A stretch of 64,000 nt of DNA from Chloroflexota bacterium (GTDB taxonomy: Bacteria > Chloroflexota > UBA11872 > VXOZ01). The notes under the pieces are model-generated. The model saw nothing but the letters and a program-made list of their open reading frames with translations, was not told the origin of the DNA and made no database searches. Location of the stretch: NCBI GenBank assembly GCA_012270555.1, contig JAAXIC010000030.1, forward strand, positions 127,103 through 191,102, given 5' to 3'. Below are positions 46,928 to 54,838 of this stretch, piece by piece (position 1 is the first letter of the stretch; each line of letters opens with the position of its first letter). The translations under genes and the position numbers were made by a program.

Positions 46928-49900
46928 TCACGTCATCTGCCGCTGCACCAGATCACGAAAGCGGCCCTCCGTCTGGTAGAGCGCGATGAAGCTGCCTTCT
47001 TGGACCACGCGTCCCTCGTGGAGCACGTAGATACGCTCCGCCATGCGGATGGTGGAAAGCCGGTGCGCGATCACGATGCGGGTGGCGGCGAGGCTTGCGA
47101 TCCCCGCCATGACCTCGGCTTGGCTCTTGGCGTCGAGCCAACTGGTGGCTTCATCGAGAAGCACGACGCGCGGTTCGCGCACTAACGCTGCCGCGATGCG
47201 GATGCGTTGGATCTGTCCGCCGGAGAAGGTCGCAGCGCTGTCGCCGACCGCCGTAAACATCTGCATCGGCATAGCGGCAATGTCGCCGTCCACGGCAGCA
47301 AGTTTGGCCGCCCTCCAGGCGTCATCGATTGTCAAATCGTCTCCAAAGCCGATGATATTGTCCAGGAGATTCCCGGGCTTGAGCGCGCCATCCTGTGTCA
47401 CAACGCCAATCTGGCGGCGGACGGAGCGTCGATCGAGATGGGCAAGGTCGCAACCGTCGTAGTAGATGCCTCCGGCTGATGGCGCCTCCAGACCCAACGC
47501 CATCCGCAGCAACGTGCTCTTGCCGGCGCCCGATTCACCGACGATGGCGATGAACTCGCCGGGACGCGCGTGAATCGACACATCATCGATGATCTGCGGT
47601 CCGTCCTGCGTGTATTGGAAACTCACGCGGTCGAAGCGCACCTCTCCACTGAGATCTATTGGCACGGCCGGAGCCGCACGGCTGTCCGGTACCGCAGTCA
47701 GAATTGGCTTTACTTGCTCGTATCCCGGCAATGCAGCCGCAATAACCTCGAACGAGTAGCCCAAGCCCACTACTGCTGCGTAGAACGTGATGGATACCGC
47801 GTAGACGACGAGGAAGTTCCCTAATTCGAGCCGGTCAGGACCGTTCCAGAGCGCGACGCCAAAGATGGCGGCGCTCATGAAGGCCGGCATCGCTGCGCTC
47901 AAAGCGATGAGATGTTCATTCAGTTTGCTGATCTGCAATTGAGCGAGTTGCTGTTCCCGATAGCCTCGTGCCCATGCCGCAAAGGCTGAAGCTTCGGCGC
48001 CGGCCGCACGGAGCTTGCCCATGCCATTGATGAACTGGAAGAGCTCACCGGCAAGGCGTCGCGAAGTAGCATAGAACCGACGCTGCGGGCCGATTTGCAG
48101 GAGACCGCAGATAAGAAAAACCGCAAGCGAGAATAGCCCTGTACCAAGAATCAGCCACGCCAGGGCCACATCGTAGAGAAAGAGGAGGACGAGCATCGGG
48201 AGCAAGAAGACGAATGAGATGACCGCGTTGGCAACCACTCCCGACATCTGGTCGCGCAGCACTTGAAAGGCTGCCATCCGCACGGCGAGTTCCCCGGCAG
48301 TGAAGTTTCTAAAGAAGCGTGTCGGGAGCCCCAACAAGCGATCCCAAAGCGCTGCGCTGACCCGAGCCGTAGCCCGCCCCTCCAGGCGCATCATTGCCGT
48401 GCCGCGCAGTATGTGCAACAGCGTCCCGACAAGCGCCAACATAACGAGTACGCCGACAATCTGGGTCAACATGCTATCAACTGCGGCCGGCAGCACCCAG
48501 TCTGCCAGCAGCCCAACGGCAATTGCGGGAGCCAACATGAGGAGGCTGGCAATGATACCCGCCCCTGCGAATTGCCAAAGGTCGCCGGTCATGCCCTGCG
48601 TAGCAAGTCTCAGTATGTCCTTGGTCCCCACCGGGCGGTCATCCGGCAAGGGGCGATAGAACAGCCAACCGTCCTGCTGAATGCCGGCTGCACGTTCTGC
48701 GTTGAGGCGGGTAGACTCTCCTGTAACCGGGTCCAGCGCGCGATAGCGCCCGCTCAAACCAGGCAGCAGCGCGAGCGGCCGCCCATCCTCACGCCGGAAG
48801 CCCAACATTGCGCCGCTGTCTCCCTCCCACCAACGCTCTTCTACCGCCAACTGCACTTTGCGGCTGCGCACTCCTGACGTTTCCAGGATTTCCCTGAGGG
48901 AGAGTTCTTCATCAACCGAAACCCGCCGGCGGGAAGGAGGTCGAAACGCAATGCCCTCTCGCTTGCCAATTACCTGCAAAGCCGCCAAGAGCGCGGAACC
49001 GCTTTCGTTAGCCGCCGGGTACGGAGAACCAAGGACGCCAAAGAGGTTCTGTCGCGCGCGTTCTTCGTCACGTCGCCGATGTATGGTGCGGGCAGTTTGC
49101 TCGTTCGCCTCGTCGGCCAAAAGCAGACGGCGGTTGATGTGTTCGGCTCCGAGAATAAGCTGATGAAACTCCACGAGAGCCTGCAGAAGGTTGCCCTGGT
49201 TGCACAGCTCACGGGACGCGTGACCGGAAATACGCGCCGGGCTCTGCAGCCTGAGCCAGGTATCGGCAGTGAGTGGCATCATCCCGGAGCCCACGGTATC
49301 CCGTTCTTCGGTCTCCAGGTACGTTGCGTCGGCATTTTCTATAGCCACCCACACCACGCCGCCGGGCCGGCTCGACACCACCCCGCTGTCCGGCACATCC
49401 AGGGACTCCGGCGGGTCTCTGGGATCGAGCAGCACGGTGGGACGAGGACGCGGTTCAATCTGCAATGCCACGGCGGCGGCGAATTCCACGACCCAGGCAT
49501 CAACTTGACCCGCCAACTGCTCCACAATCTCATGTTGCAAGACGTCGTCAAGCTGAACCCGGCGCAGCCTGCAATCCGGGCTGCCTTTGGCGATAGTGGC
49601 CAGATTCTTGCTCTCACCGACCCCGAAGACCAGGCGGCCCTCCTCAGCGCGGAGTATGTGCTTCGCATGAGAGGAGGGCTCCTCATCCTGATATTCGACA
49701 AGAAACACATCCAGCGCGCCGCGCTCGACGAACCAGGCAACGCCCGGATCATCCAAGCGGACGGGAAGGTTACCGGCGCTGGCAACCGGCGTGCCAATTT
49801 CGACTGCGAGATCGCTGAGCCGCTGAAATCGTCTTCGTGTCAATACTGCCTTCCCTGTTGGTGGGTTCGCTTCGTCACTGTGCGTGGATAAGCTGGGCGT

Positions 49901-49933
49901 ACACGCCTTGTGTCTCGGCTGCAAGTTCCTCAT
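46928..49933 (-). CDS. NHLM-type bacteriocin system ABC transporter (permease/ATPase with long N-terminal extension)
   Basis: IVGESGAGKSTLLRMALGLE Walker A, FSGGQIQRIRIAAALVREPRVVLLDEATSWLD. Start uncertain (ORF opens at 49990; ATG 49933 or TTG 49843 plausible). Confidence 0.85.
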   Translation of the reverse strand: MRNLQPRHKACTPSLSTHSDEANPPTGKAVLTRRRFQRLSDLAVEIGTPVASAGNLPVRLDDPGVAWFVERGALDVFLVEYQDEEPSSHAKHILRAEEGRLVFGVGESKNLATIAKGSPDCRLRRVQLDDVLQHEIVEQLAGQVDAWVVEFAAAVALQIEPRPRPTVLLDPRDPPESLDVPDSGVVSSRPGGVVWVAIENADATYLETEERDTVGSGMMPLTADTWLRLQSPARISGHASRELCNQGNLLQALVEFHQLILGAEHINRRLLLADEANEQTARTIHRRRDEERARQNLFGVLGSPYPAANESGSALLAALQVIGKREGIAFRPPSRRRVSVDEELSLREILETSGVRSRKVQLAVEERWWEGDSGAMLGFRREDGRPLALLPGLSGRYRALDPVTGESTRLNAERAAGIQQDGWLFYRPLPDDRPVGTKDILRLATQGMTGDLWQFAGAGIIASLLMLAPAIAVGLLADWVLPAAVDSMLTQIVGVLVMLALVGTLLHILRGTAMMRLEGRATARVSAALWDRLLGLPTRFFRNFTAGELAVRMAAFQVLRDQMSGVVANAVISFVFLLPMLVLLFLYDVALAWLILGTGLFSLAVFLICGLLQIGPQRRFYATSRRLAGELFQFINGMGKLRAAGAEASAFAAWARGYREQQLAQLQISKLNEHLIALSAAMPAFMSAAIFGVALWNGPDRLELGNFLVVYAVSITFYAAVVGLGYSFEVIAAALPGYEQVKPILTAVPDSRAAPAVPIDLSGEVRFDRVSFQYTQDGPQIIDDVSIHARPGEFIAIVGESGAGKSTLLRMALGLEAPSAGGIYYDGCDLAHLDRRSVRRQIGVVTQDGALKPGNLLDNIIGFGDDLTIDDAWRAAKLAAVDGDIAAMPMQMFTAVGDSAATFSGGQIQRIRIAAALVREPRVVLLDEATSWLDAKSQAEVMAGIASLAATRIVIAHRLSTIRMAERIYVLHEGRVVQEGSFIALYQTEGRFRDLVQRQMT

Positions 49934-52070
49934 GCGTACCGCTCTGCACCTGACGTCCGTGCTCGAGCACGACAATCTGATCACAGTCACGAATGGTGCT
50001 CAAGCGATGGGCAACGATCATGCAAGTGCAACCGCGGCGGCGCAAGCTGTCGTCAATGCGCATCTCACTCACGGCATCGAGCGTGCTGGTGGCTTCATCG
50101 AGAAAGAGTACTGAAGGATTGTCAACGAGGGCACGGGCGATCTCCAGGCGCTGGCGCTGGCCGCCGCTAAAGTTCGTGCCCCCTTCCTCTACCCTTGTCT
50201 CATAGCCGGATGCGCGGCTCATGATTTCATTGTGGATCAACGCGTCCTGAGCGGCGGCAATCACCTGTTCATCCGGCGCCGTCGGGTTCCACAGCGTCAG
50301 ATTGTCACGCACGGATGCTGCAAACAGGAAAATCTGCTGATCCACGACGGATACCGATTGGGTCAGTATTTCGCGCGGAATCTCGTTGCGCGGTACGCCG
50401 TCAAAGAGGATTTCGCCCGACCACGGTGTGTATTCACCGCTGACCAGCTTGAGAAGCGTAGACTTCCCTGATCCCGTGGGGCCGACCAATGCCACGCGTT
50501 GGCCGGGTGCGATGGTAAGGCTGAAATTCTCGATGAGCGGCGGGCGATGGCGATGGTAGCCAAACGTAACATTGCGTAGCTCGATCTTGCCTGCCAAACG
50601 CAACCGTCCGCCCAAAGTAGCGACCTTCCCGCTTTCCGAATTAATGAGGGATTTTAGGGCGGGGTCCTCAGGAGCTGCCAGGATGTCGCCGATGCGCTGT
50701 AGATCGGCCTCGAGTATTTGAAACGTGTCCGCGAACTGCACAAACCGCCCTATCGGCTGGAGAAAGTTTCCCGATATGACGAAGAATCCCATCAGCATGC
50801 CGATCGTCATGTCGCCGGTCATAACCTTCCAACCGCCGAGCCCCAAGACTGCCACGCCGCCCAGCATGAGGAACAGCCGCGGCAGTGACGCAATGACATA
50901 GCCGATCTCCACGAACTTCTGCCGGGCTACGAGCTCGCGGGCCTGGTATCCCGCCCAACGCGCGAAGAAGTCGTCCTCGGTTGCAGTCGCGCGCAACGTG
51001 TCTATGTCGCGGAGAACTGACGATCCGGTACCGAAGAGCAGCGCCTGCTCGCGCCGCAGTTGACGATTCTCGTCGCCGCGGAGCCGGCTAAGGATGCGCA
51101 TGAGCACCAGGTTTGCGCATCCGAGAGCAACAACGACAGCGGCGAGCACAGGATCATAGAAGATCATCAAGACCAAGAACAATGCGCTCATGACAAGCTC
51201 TATCATGATGCCGACGAATTGCCGCGACGAGCCGCTGGCAACCTCGTTTATCAACTGCACCCGAGACGTCAGATCCCCCGTGTAGCGGTGCGCGAAGAAC
51301 TCTATAGGCAGCCGGAAGAGACGAGAGAGCATGCGTTCCGCGTGAACTACCGCAAGACGAACGGCGAGCCAGCGCAGCGCATGTTGCTGGAGCCACGTGA
51401 GCAGGTAAACCAGACCGCCGGTTGCCGCCGCGGCTGCGACTAGGAGCGCACCCCACGTCCTTTCCGCTTCTCCGAGGACGTAATCAACGAATAGGCCCAA
51501 GAGGACGGGGAGAAAAAGACCCGGCAATGCAAGCAGGAGACCGCATGCGGCAACGAACGCGAGCGGAGACTTGACGTCGCGCAACCACGACAAGAGTTCG
51601 CGCATAATACCGGGCCGCGAGCCGCCCATACGAAAATTTGGCCCAGGCTTCGCTGTGAGCACTACACCAGTGAAAGACCGGTCGAATGTCTCCTCGCTCA
51701 CCGTGCGACGGCCGTTGGCAGGGTCGTTGAGGTGATAGCGCCCCTTGTCCATTCCTTCGAGAACCAAGAAGTGGTTGAATTCCCAAAAGAGGATTGCAGG
51801 CAACGCTATGTCGTGCAACTGGCTGATCTGCTTACGCCAGCCCGAAACCTCTAGATCAAACTTCCGCGCTGCCCGTACAATGTCTGCCGCGCTGGTACCG
51901 TCACGGCTGACTCCGCATGCGTCCCGCAGTTCCTCTATGGGTTCCCACCGGTCATAGTGCGCAAGGACTATGCCCAAGCAGGCAGCGCCGCATTCAGACG
52001 TCTCAAGCTGGGGGAAGAGCGGCGTGCGCAAGCGCTTCCTCGTAGGTATCTCCACCGCACTCGCTGGCAT
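49875..52070 (-). CDS. Peptidase-containing (C39) NHLP-family bacteriocin export ABC transporter
   Basis: C39 Cys box FPQLETSECGAACLGIVLAHYDRW, His box FNHFLVLEGMDKGRYHLNDPANGRR; ABC motifs GPTGSGKSTLLKLVSG, FSGGQRQRLEIARALVDNPSVLFLDEATSTLD. Confidence 0.93.
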   Translation of the reverse strand: MPASAVEIPTRKRLRTPLFPQLETSECGAACLGIVLAHYDRWEPIEELRDACGVSRDGTSAADIVRAARKFDLEVSGWRKQISQLHDIALPAILFWEFNHFLVLEGMDKGRYHLNDPANGRRTVSEETFDRSFTGVVLTAKPGPNFRMGGSRPGIMRELLSWLRDVKSPLAFVAACGLLLALPGLFLPVLLGLFVDYVLGEAERTWGALLVAAAAATGGLVYLLTWLQQHALRWLAVRLAVVHAERMLSRLFRLPIEFFAHRYTGDLTSRVQLINEVASGSSRQFVGIMIELVMSALFLVLMIFYDPVLAAVVVALGCANLVLMRILSRLRGDENRQLRREQALLFGTGSSVLRDIDTLRATATEDDFFARWAGYQARELVARQKFVEIGYVIASLPRLFLMLGGVAVLGLGGWKVMTGDMTIGMLMGFFVISGNFLQPIGRFVQFADTFQILEADLQRIGDILAAPEDPALKSLINSESGKVATLGGRLRLAGKIELRNVTFGYHRHRPPLIENFSLTIAPGQRVALVGPTGSGKSTLLKLVSGEYTPWSGEILFDGVPRNEIPREILTQSVSVVDQQIFLFAASVRDNLTLWNPTAPDEQVIAAAQDALIHNEIMSRASGYETRVEEGGTNFSGGQRQRLEIARALVDNPSVLFLDEATSTLDAVSEMRIDDSLRRRGCTCMIVAHRLSTIRDCDQIVVLEHGRQVQSGTHEELAAETQGVYAQLIHAQ

Positions 52071-52084
52071 AGTACCAAGCCGCC

Positions 52085-53005
52085 TTAATTGGACCCGGAC
52101 GATAGCAACAAGCGCGCGGGCGAGGCTTTACGCACAATGATCCGCAGTTCGCACGGATCCCCGTCTGCCACCGCAGAGGGTGGATCCTGGAGCAGGGCCA
52201 CGTTGACCACGTGGCCGCGCGGCAAGGCTGGGAGTCCCAAGGCCGTCAGCCAGTGCGGCGGTGCGACCACGTGTGTTGAAATGGAGGCCACTTGGGCCTG
52301 CAGAGCTTCACTCCCTCGTCCATCACGGCCCGGAGCCAATATGCCCGCTTCCATGCCGACAGCAAGGCGCCTTGCACTCTCCGGCAAGACCATTGCGACT
52401 GCCTCAAGATCGTTCCTGTCGGCAATACGGACACTTGCCACTGTCGTGCCCACGGCCACCGCCTGTCCTAAGGACAAGTCGTAGACGGTGATTATCCCGC
52501 CGTAAGGTGTGGTAAGGAACTCGCCGGCTGACTCGCGTGCTTCGAGCGCAGTCAACTCTGAACGAGCCACGTCGAGGGCAGCGGACGTCTCCGCGCCATT
52601 GCTTTCCAGGACTTCAACGCGGGAGCGGGTAATGGCAATCTCCCGGCGTAGCCCGGGGGACCTGAGCCGGGCAATAGGCTGCCCGGCTGCGACTTCATCG
52701 CCGACTTCCACCAAGAGATCTTCGACCGTTCCTGAGAACTCAGCGATGACCGCAAAACGATCGCCCGGCTGAGCAAACACACACCGTGCCGAAACACTTT
52801 GTTCGACACTGCCCCAAATTCCCCAAGCCGCCAATCCCAACACGCCGAGACCCAGGCAAACCAACAGAATCCACTCGTGGGGCGCCGTTACGCGCAGCAG
52901 GCCGTTGAGGGGTTCCGTCTTCCCTCTGCGGGCGAATGCTTCCTCGCGAAAGAGACGACGGTTGTTCGTCAACGTCACCGCTCCCAGCGCTTCCCGGCAA
53001 GCCAA
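52085..53005 (-). CDS. HlyD-like membrane fusion/secretion protein of the NHLM system
   Basis: Single N-terminal TM (EWILLVCLGLGVLGLAAWGIWG), SGTVEDLLVEVGDEVAAGQPIARLRSPG biotinyl-like hairpin domain. Confidence 0.85.
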   Translation of the reverse strand: MACREALGAVTLTNNRRLFREEAFARRGKTEPLNGLLRVTAPHEWILLVCLGLGVLGLAAWGIWGSVEQSVSARCVFAQPGDRFAVIAEFSGTVEDLLVEVGDEVAAGQPIARLRSPGLRREIAITRSRVEVLESNGAETSAALDVARSELTALEARESAGEFLTTPYGGIITVYDLSLGQAVAVGTTVASVRIADRNDLEAVAMVLPESARRLAVGMEAGILAPGRDGRGSEALQAQVASISTHVVAPPHWLTALGLPALPRGHVVNVALLQDPPSAVADGDPCELRIIVRKASPARLLLSSGSN

Positions 53006-53296
53006 ACTACAATTCGAAGGCTATTCTATCGCAATAAAGGTCCCTAATGGAATGACACAAGGTTCATGTCCATTTCAATGCGAAAAACCCCTCAGGAGAC
53101 CGCCGTCTGCCTCAGAGTGCCACGTGCACGGCGCATGACGAGGACAAGAGTACGGAACCCGTTGTCGCGCGCGTTTCGCCCAGAGCAGCAGACTCTGTCA
53201 CGACATCCCGCATGAATGTGTTGGGCACAAGCTTGGTTAGCTTTGCCGGTCTCTGCTGGCGAGAAGTGCCCCTACTCGAGCGCCACGATACAGAAA

Positions 53297-53332
53297 AAGT
53301 ACGATGGGCTCACACTGGAGCCCATCGTACTT
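53297..53332 (-). terminator. Strong intrinsic terminator after the precursor peptide gene
   Basis: Minus-strand AAGTACGATGGGCTC-cagtgt-GAGCCCATCGTACTT followed by TTTCTG: 15-bp perfect stem, 6-nt loop, U-tract. Confidence 0.9.
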
Positions 53333-53352
53333 GTCAGACGATCTCAATCAGT

Positions 53353-53550
53353 CTACTCGTTTGGATCGTTCCACCAGCCTCTGCCGGCGCTATCACCGGT
53401 GTCCGGGGGCGGCTGTTCATCACCAGCGCCAACCCCACCAACGGCTTGGTCCAATTCGTCTTCGGTCATCTCACCACTAGCCGGTTCCACACTTTCTGCT
53501 TCGGCGGATACGGCTTCCTCATCTTTAGAAGAATTCTTCCCTTCACTCAT
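53353..53550 (-). CDS. Double-glycine leader precursor peptide (NHLP/RiPP-type exported peptide)
   Basis: MSEGKNSSKDEEAVSAEAESVEPASGEMTEDELDQAVGGVGAGDEQPPPDTGDSAGRGWWNDPNE; RBS GGAGG 8 nt upstream of ATG 53550; GG-type site beside a C39 exporter; followed by a terminator. Confidence 0.8.
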   Translation of the reverse strand: MSEGKNSSKDEEAVSAEAESVEPASGEMTEDELDQAVGGVGAGDEQPPPDTGDSAGRGWWNDPNE

Positions 53551-54082
53551 TGGAGCGTCCTCCAGAACTATCACTGTCGCATTCACTGGCACCCAAACCG
53601 ACCATTACTCAAGCTCTTGGATTGCAACGAAACTCATAGATTTCGATTTAGGCATCGACGCGGCGTCCTCAATAGCGAGAGGAAACCAGAGCGAGTAACA
53701 GTATCTCCCTAGAGAATTGTTACGTGAAGTAACCTCCTTATAGTGCTATTCAACGTCCCTCAGTGTTGACGGTTGGGACGATCATCCTTGATCGCAACTG
53801 CATGGTATAAGACAGGCAAGTACTCGTCAAGCGTGTGGTTTTTAGAAATCTGAAACTGTCCTATATCTTTGTATCACACCGGTTGATAAAACAAACCGTG
53901 GTCCCGGAAGAGGCAGAACGAGCCCTCAGAGAGCTGGTTTGAAGGTCTCCGTGCGCAGCGTGTCGGCGTTGCCGGAAACCGGAAGCAAACCGCAGGATGT
54001 CTCGACTGCCTGTGCGCTCGCTTTACCCCGCATCACTTGCCACTTATAGACAGCGATCATCACTTCTACGGACTGTCAGCGC

Positions 54083-54838
54083 CTAGCGAGAGGTCTGGTA
54101 CGCCTTTTCGACCGCGGGCTTCCGCAAGGCGTAGATGATGAAGTTAGGCACGCGGAACTCATCGGCAAACGCAGGATTTGCGGCGAGTTGCGCATCCGAT
54201 GGAGTCGGCTCGTGGAGGCCATCCAGGACAAAACCCGCTTCCAGAAACGCCGAGATGTAGCTGGACAGTGTCCGGTGCATGTTGATGAAGGTCTCGCCCC
54301 ACCACTCGAATTCGCGCGGCCCTTCATCTGTATAGTTATCGATGGCATAGAAGAGCTTCCGGTCGCCCTGCTTTACCCACCCGTTTGGCTGCGCCATGCG
54401 CATCGGATGGATGTTGCATACGATGAAGCGCCCGCCGGGCCGCAGCACGCGATACGCCGCCTGAATCGAGCGCCGATAATCGTGAATGTCCACCAGCACG
54501 ATGTATGAAACAGCCAGATCGAAGCTCTCGTCTTCGACTCCCGCCAGGTCTTCCGCGTTTCCAACCAGATACGTCTCTGATTCCGAGGCCAGCGCGTTCG
54601 CCTGCTCGATAAGCGGTTCGGTGAGATCGATGCCGGTGACGTGCGCGCCCAAACCGGCAAGCACGCGGCAAAACCGGCCCTCGCCACACCCAATGTCCAA
54701 CACGCGGCGACCGGCTACATCCCCAAGCGACTCAAGCATCCAGGAGTCGAGCATGCCGGTGCGAATCCACTGGTCCTCCCGAATCCAGTCTTGGACGTGT
54801 TCAGTCCACTGCGTGCGCAGTTGTTGCTTCAGATTCAT
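54083..54838 (-). CDS. SAM-dependent methyltransferase (class I)
   Basis: RRVLDIGCGEGRFCRVLAGLGAHVTGIDLTEPLIEQA; start MNLKQQLRTQW at 54838. Confidence 0.9.
   Translation of the reverse strand: MNLKQQLRTQWTEHVQDWIREDQWIRTGMLDSWMLESLGDVAGRRVLDIGCGEGRFCRVLAGLGAHVTGIDLTEPLIEQANALASESETYLVGNAEDLAGVEDESFDLAVSYIVLVDIHDYRRSIQAAYRVLRPGGRFIVCNIHPMRMAQPNGWVKQGDRKLFYAIDNYTDEGPREFEWWGETFINMHRTLSSYISAFLEAGFVLDGLHEPTPSDAQLAANPAFADEFRVPNFIIYALRKPAVEKAYQTSR

Follow-up and report, generated by a model that had tools for sequence, protein, structure and literature searches.

A self-contained export cassette with its own precursor

The window analysed here, a stretch of 64,000 nucleotides from contig JAAXIC010000030.1 (assembly GCA_012270555.1), comes from a member of the Chloroflexota that is probably a marine sponge symbiont, and it contains a four-gene cassette that, as judged from its sequence, represents a simplified form of the known NHLM export system. 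In the reading that we favour, at a probability of roughly 0.6, the cassette is dedicated to the processing and export of one short, most likely unmodified peptide with an extracellular role, either as a signal or as a community or biofilm factor. This reading draws on gene content, precursor conservation, catalytic residues, a terminator, the absence of the tailoring families tested and a single switch of leader type in the exporter tree.

The four genes lie on the minus strand in the order precursor, HlyD-like adaptor, C39-peptidase ABC transporter (ABC1) and NHLM-type ABC transporter (ABC2), and reading of the window bore out the first-pass annotation in its genes, strand and order. The precursor gene (53353–53550) encodes 65 amino acids, is preceded by a GGAGG ribosome-binding site (53559–53563) 8 nt upstream of its ATG, and is found upstream of the adaptor gene in each of the six genus genomes. 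Pairwise dN/dS values within the genus are about 0.1–0.3, all below 0.4 and well below 1, with dS near saturation in the more distant pairs; by this substitution pattern the precursor is a genuine gene under purifying selection. The protein has no match in Pfam or NCBIfam. A homologous small open reading frame (ORF), on which the proposal of an unlisted precursor depended, was looked for beside orthologous exporters and is present: 18 related loci contain 13 instances of the short-leader motif, against 0.05 expected per shuffled set. In the sister loci L062, L064 and L082, no precursor was found.

The gene arrangement also defines the boundaries of the cassette. The methyltransferase gene precedes the precursor, adaptor, ABC1 and ABC2 genes in G000, G002 and G004, and a gene encoding a DUF4350-containing protein and a C45 gene follow them. 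In G001 and G003, the four-gene unit is flipped as a block between the same flanks, such that the methyltransferase gene is convergent with ABC2; it is therefore not co-transcribed with the cassette in these genomes and is a bystander. This reversal in two genomes rules out the methyltransferase (54083–54838) as part of the system and speaks against its earlier nomination as a tailoring enzyme, and the NERD gene is ruled out because it is missing from the flank in some genomes. Inverted repeats were considered as the cause of the inversion, and repeat pairs were present at chance level only. The cassette contains no immunity gene, and no receptor or regulator gene is linked to it. Together, its presence in six of six genomes, the block inversion and the neighbourhoods across the exporter clade support the initial description of the locus as an NHLM-type export cassette that is self-contained, encodes a short-leader precursor of its own and lacks a recognised tailoring enzyme.

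Transcription signals

An intrinsic terminator of the precursor transcript (53297–53332, minus strand) lies directly 3′ of the gene and consists of a 15-bp hairpin followed by a T run (z = −5). The hairpin is strong in all six genus genomes despite sequence change, and four of its pairs show compensatory change. On the 5′ side, a candidate precursor promoter, TTGACG-17-TACCAT (53802–53830, minus strand), has a similar −35 hexamer in most genus genomes and, taken alone, does not rise above chance. Just downstream of it, about 220 nt before the precursor start, a 22-nt leader-RNA element, GATCAAGGATGATCGTCCCAAC (53772–53793, minus strand), is conserved across the genus. This element can fold into a small hairpin with one compensatory change; it was rejected as a covarying RNA, given that 189 of 500 shuffles reached the observed value, and no Rfam family corresponds to it. 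It was also rejected as a regulon signal, because good matches in each genome occur only at the precursor locus. A candidate −10 hexamer, TAGAAT (53023–53028, minus strand), recurs upstream of the adaptor gene in the five genus sequences read, and this conservation suggests a separate exporter transcript.

The leader and the predicted mature peptide

The leader (residues 1–39; 53434–53550, minus strand) is very acidic, with 12 Asp/Glu and two Lys, which confirms the earlier observation of a short acidic leader in place of a long NHLP domain. It ends in M28xxxxL33xxA36-V-G-G, and G26, E27, T29–E32 and A36–G39 are invariant in alignment A1. Most invariant positions thus fall within GE(M/L)TEDE(L/M)xxAVGG, which combines the double-glycine consensus with an MxxxxL docking helix; M/L at −12, L/M at −7, A at −4, G at −2 and −1, and the acidic helix are found in all homologues. 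The leader therefore retains only the docking and cleavage end (MxxxxLxxAxGG), and the body of an NHLP leader is absent: with no NCBIfam match, the precursor does not carry the NHLP leader domain TIGR03793.

Cleavage after the double glycine would release the predicted mature peptide VGAGDEQPPPDTGDSAGRGWWNDPNE (53356–53433, minus strand), which has 26 residues, no Cys and a pI of about 3.5. The core is 26 residues long in all five aligned homologues, with Q46, P48, W59, W60, D62 and P63 invariant, and it ends in GWW[N/T]DP plus two residues (here …GRGWWNDPNE). Genus homologues are Cys-free, with a core charge of −4 to −5 and a pI of 3.4–3.8. Core sequences vary between subclades and are conserved inside them; in one Acidimicrobiia subclade, the core is conserved (14/60 nt differences, one amino-acid change) and the leader diverges. 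The conserved Trp-Trp could be a modification site.

The exporter proteins

The HlyD-like adaptor (52085–52975, minus strand; 296 aa) probably starts at the GTG at 52975, in a frame that is open to 53005. It matches PF13437 at 39 bits, and its best match is TIGR03794 at 90 bits, below the 156 cut-off; by this match it is a short and divergent TIGR03794 member, located where an adaptor would be expected. The idea that the adaptor is plasmid-borne was rejected, as no match was obtained. ABC1 (49875–52070, minus strand; 731 aa) combines C39 peptidase, permease and ATPase domains and scores above the TIGR03796 cut-off (919 versus 853 bits). Its C39 catalytic residues C27, H100 and D116 are invariant among seven aligned relatives, and PCAT structures match it over residues 21–724. 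At locus L039 (G004, ~13430), ABC1 is split by a frameshift, either real or an assembly error.

ABC2 (46928–49846, minus strand; 972 aa) is an NHLM permease/ATPase above the TIGR03797 cut-off (727 versus 709 bits), with an N-terminal region of about 283 aa. Stop codons in relatives place its start near 49846, not at 49990. A structural model of the N-terminus (48551–49846) predicts two cyclic-nucleotide-binding-like folds in tandem, together with a long helix and one additional domain, and no canonical phosphate-binding cassette is evident in the modelled region. A C39-like domain in ABC2 was rejected because the profile comparison was not significant.

A single leader switch in a sponge-symbiont exporter family

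Scanning all of GTDB with the N-terminus of ABC2 yielded 142 relatives, an incomplete sample because one short pattern was used. The best 80 of the 142 come almost entirely from sponge-metagenome MAGs of many phyla, the habitat being taken mainly from record titles. The jk18x series is from Ircinia (PMC9531527), and we infer that the prefixes RHO, COS and IRC denote R. odorabile, C. matthewsi and I. ramosa, the species sampled in PMC8163846.

In a quick maximum-likelihood tree of ABC1 (84 rows, SH-aLRT), the genus belongs to a clade (97) whose 20 rows are from Chloroflexota and Acidimicrobiia. Short-leader precursors occur in 16 rows, every one inside this clade, whereas NHLP (proteusin) leaders occur beside 50 others, all outside it; no locus among the rows has both. 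The leader-type labels require one change on the tree, compared with a minimum of 11 and a mean of 14.5 in 100 shuffles, so that on this tree the leader type switched once. Because both Chloroflexota and Acidimicrobiia also include NHLP users, precursor type is predicted by the branch to which the exporter belongs and not by the host taxon.

Gene neighbourhoods follow the same division. RiPP-associated families, counted within 10 kb as YcaO, halogenase, desaturase fusion, the A5 family and NHLP frames, are present near none of the 18 clade loci and near 49 of the 62 loci outside (p = 6e-10, with related loci treated as independent). A known RiPP enzyme conserved beside orthologues, which might have been overlooked in the first-pass annotation, is thus not found near loci of the same exporter clade. 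Other branches of the sponge NHLM family adjoin proteusins with YcaO, halogenase and prenyltransferase-like enzymes; in G011, for example, a sister exporter lies beside an NHLP precursor, a YcaO and a Trp halogenase. Since these branches serve proteusins with tailoring enzymes, the cassette is best described as a variant of a known family. The ranking of the locus as the top candidate for an undescribed system should accordingly be moderated, as its exporter belongs to a large sponge-symbiont NHLM family.

Several further features were seen at related loci. At L064 (12896–13489) and L082 (12924–13514), a ‘bacteriocin-protection’ gene with an OmdA/YdeI domain directly follows ABC2. In L067, L070, L071, L086 and L089, the region after ABC2 (near 12.9–13.2 kb) holds another small ORF in antisense orientation, whose leader ends in LEQVQGA (LEQIQGA in L067) and which has a Gly/Ala-rich tail. 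Short GG/GA leaders are also encoded by ORFs near more distant NHLM exporters of Chloroflexota (L048, ~10184, minus strand; L050, ~919, plus strand).

Tailoring enzymes and the A5 family

The genome-wide tailoring search was confined to halogenase, YcaO, LanC-like, A5 and SPASM proteins. Across the six genomes of the genus, it returned no Trp halogenase (PF04820), YcaO (PF02624), LanC-like protein (PF05147) or member of the prenyltransferase-like, proteusin-associated A5 family. G001 and G003 each have one SPASM protein, and G000, G002 and G004 have none. Bromination of the WW motif was rejected for want of a halogenase in the genus, as was prenylation in trans by the A5 family, which the genus lacks. 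No NHLP precursor scores above the cut-off in the six genomes, and the weak NHLP matches in G000 fall within longer frames that occur in pairs and look like nitrile hydratase genes.

Of the 62 sponge loci that lie outside the clade, 36 carry a member of the A5 family (~372 aa; for example, L122:14429–15547 and L066:13656–14777), and members are also present at G011 C6:68943, G025 C22:46002, G025 C28:214650 and G040 C2:9807. A representative has no match in Pfam (E 1e-4) or NCBIfam (E 1e-3), and its predicted structure (pLDDT 90) resembles the ABBA-type aromatic/tryptophan prenyltransferase fold (Foldseek E ~1e-5). A5 genes adjoin NHLP precursors, and on the basis of the model the family is a candidate group of proteusin prenyltransferases that is widespread in sponge symbionts. 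At L058 (G025 C28, ~1354–1605), a canonical NHLP leader precedes a core that is just five residues long (MIIVW), and an A5-family gene lies at a distance of about 1 kb.

Proposed mechanism and rival explanations

From these observations we infer a cleavage site, export, a lack of modification and a function. The precursor would probably be transcribed apart from the exporter, its transcript stopping at its own terminator. The acidic leader may dock on the C39 domain of ABC1 through the MxxxxLxxAxGG helix, the C39 domain would cut after Gly39, and ABC1, ABC2 and the adaptor would export the 26-residue acidic peptide; cleavage and export are proposed by analogy, given what is known of the NHLM family and the intact active sites. 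The peptide most likely leaves the cell without modification by any known RiPP enzyme, the most economical reading because the searches for tailoring enzymes were negative. Outside the cell, it may act as a signal or as a community or biofilm factor, a role suggested by its acidity, its conservation and the lack of a linked immunity gene. This last step is the least secure.

RiPP enzymes can be unlinked from their precursors, and one alternative is that the precursor is modified in trans by such an enzyme, for instance on Trp-Trp, before the same cleavage and export. The invariance of WW[N/T]DP would fit, as would the Trp-rich cores of the sponge proteusins of sister exporters, which lie beside halogenase, YcaO and prenyltransferase-like genes. 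We nevertheless regard this as unlikely: Trp halogenase, YcaO, LanC-like proteins and A5 are missing from every genus genome and SPASM proteins from three, the leader lacks the NHLP body and tailoring genes are found near none of the 18 clade loci. Somewhat less probable still is an unmodified class II-like bacteriocin directed against competitors in the sponge. The class II layout likewise combines a C39 exporter with a double-glycine leader, and the OmdA/YdeI ‘bacteriocin-protection’ gene after ABC2 in two sister loci without a found precursor points the same way. Class II bacteriocins are usually cationic, however, whereas this core is strongly acidic; the cassette has no immunity gene and the cores are conserved inside subclades rather than diversifying, and for these reasons the product is probably not a classical cationic bacteriocin. 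That the exporter chiefly serves proteusins encoded elsewhere, the short ORF being incidental, is very improbable. Sister clades do serve NHLP precursors, and precursors are often distant from exporters in NHLP/Nif11 systems (PMC2887384), but G000 has no NHLP precursor above the cut-off, and the short ORF is kept with the exporter in all six genomes and inverts together with it, which already contradicts this explanation within the genus.

Extending the preferred reading, export of an unmodified peptide, to the whole clade, we tentatively suggest that an NHLM exporter branch that arose once dropped proteusins and exports unmodified, lineage-specific linear peptides as signals or as host or community factors, in Chloroflexota and Acidimicrobiia of the same sponges. 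Within one clade, spanning symbionts of two phyla, precursors are cut down to the leader cleavage segment and tailoring genes are lacking. The exporter's requirement (motif 2) is thereby set apart from that of modifying enzymes (a long leader), and the clade offers a natural test of leader function. The presence of an NHLM exporter has so far been taken to indicate a modified natural product; the clade defines small secreted peptides of sponge symbionts that genome mining by tailoring enzymes would miss.

Comparison with known systems

The closest counterpart is the NHLP/Nif11 RiPP export system (TIGR03794/03796/03797; Haft, Basu and Mitchell 2010, PMC2887384), which has the same three components and the same leader end, ‘motif 2’, a segment that ends NHLP and Nif11 leaders and resembles class II bacteriocin leaders. 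NHLP and Nif11 leaders average 83 and 70 aa to the GG (PMC2887384), whereas the leader described here has 39 aa and neither domain, the core is acidic and Cys-free, and tailoring genes are absent. A docking motif of the form LxxxxL has been described for the C39-type protease LahT (PMC10858898). The srp proteusin clusters (SrpE/SrpI; Nguyen et al. 2021), as far as their description within PMC10858898 and PMC9426513 goes, likewise originate from sponge symbionts and have an LxxxxL leader motif; by the same description they differ in the NHLP leader, halogenase and YcaO that the genus lacks and in a Trp-Trp at the C-terminus, rather than six residues from it.

Class II bacteriocins and ComC-type pheromones (TIGR01847-like leaders) share a double-glycine leader of 20–40 aa and the lack of a tailoring enzyme, but they use a single PCAT in place of the NHLM two-ABC exporter, and the cassette differs from them in its acidic core and in having no linked immunity gene or histidine kinase. 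In Synechococcus elongatus, the small GG proteins EbfG1–4 are also matured by a C39-peptidase transporter, PteB; these proteins are required for biofilm and are not known as antibiotics (PMC4997328). The exporter is of a different type, and the likeness is one of description, not of sequence comparison; by analogy, these exported GG peptides can serve as a precedent for a biofilm-type role.
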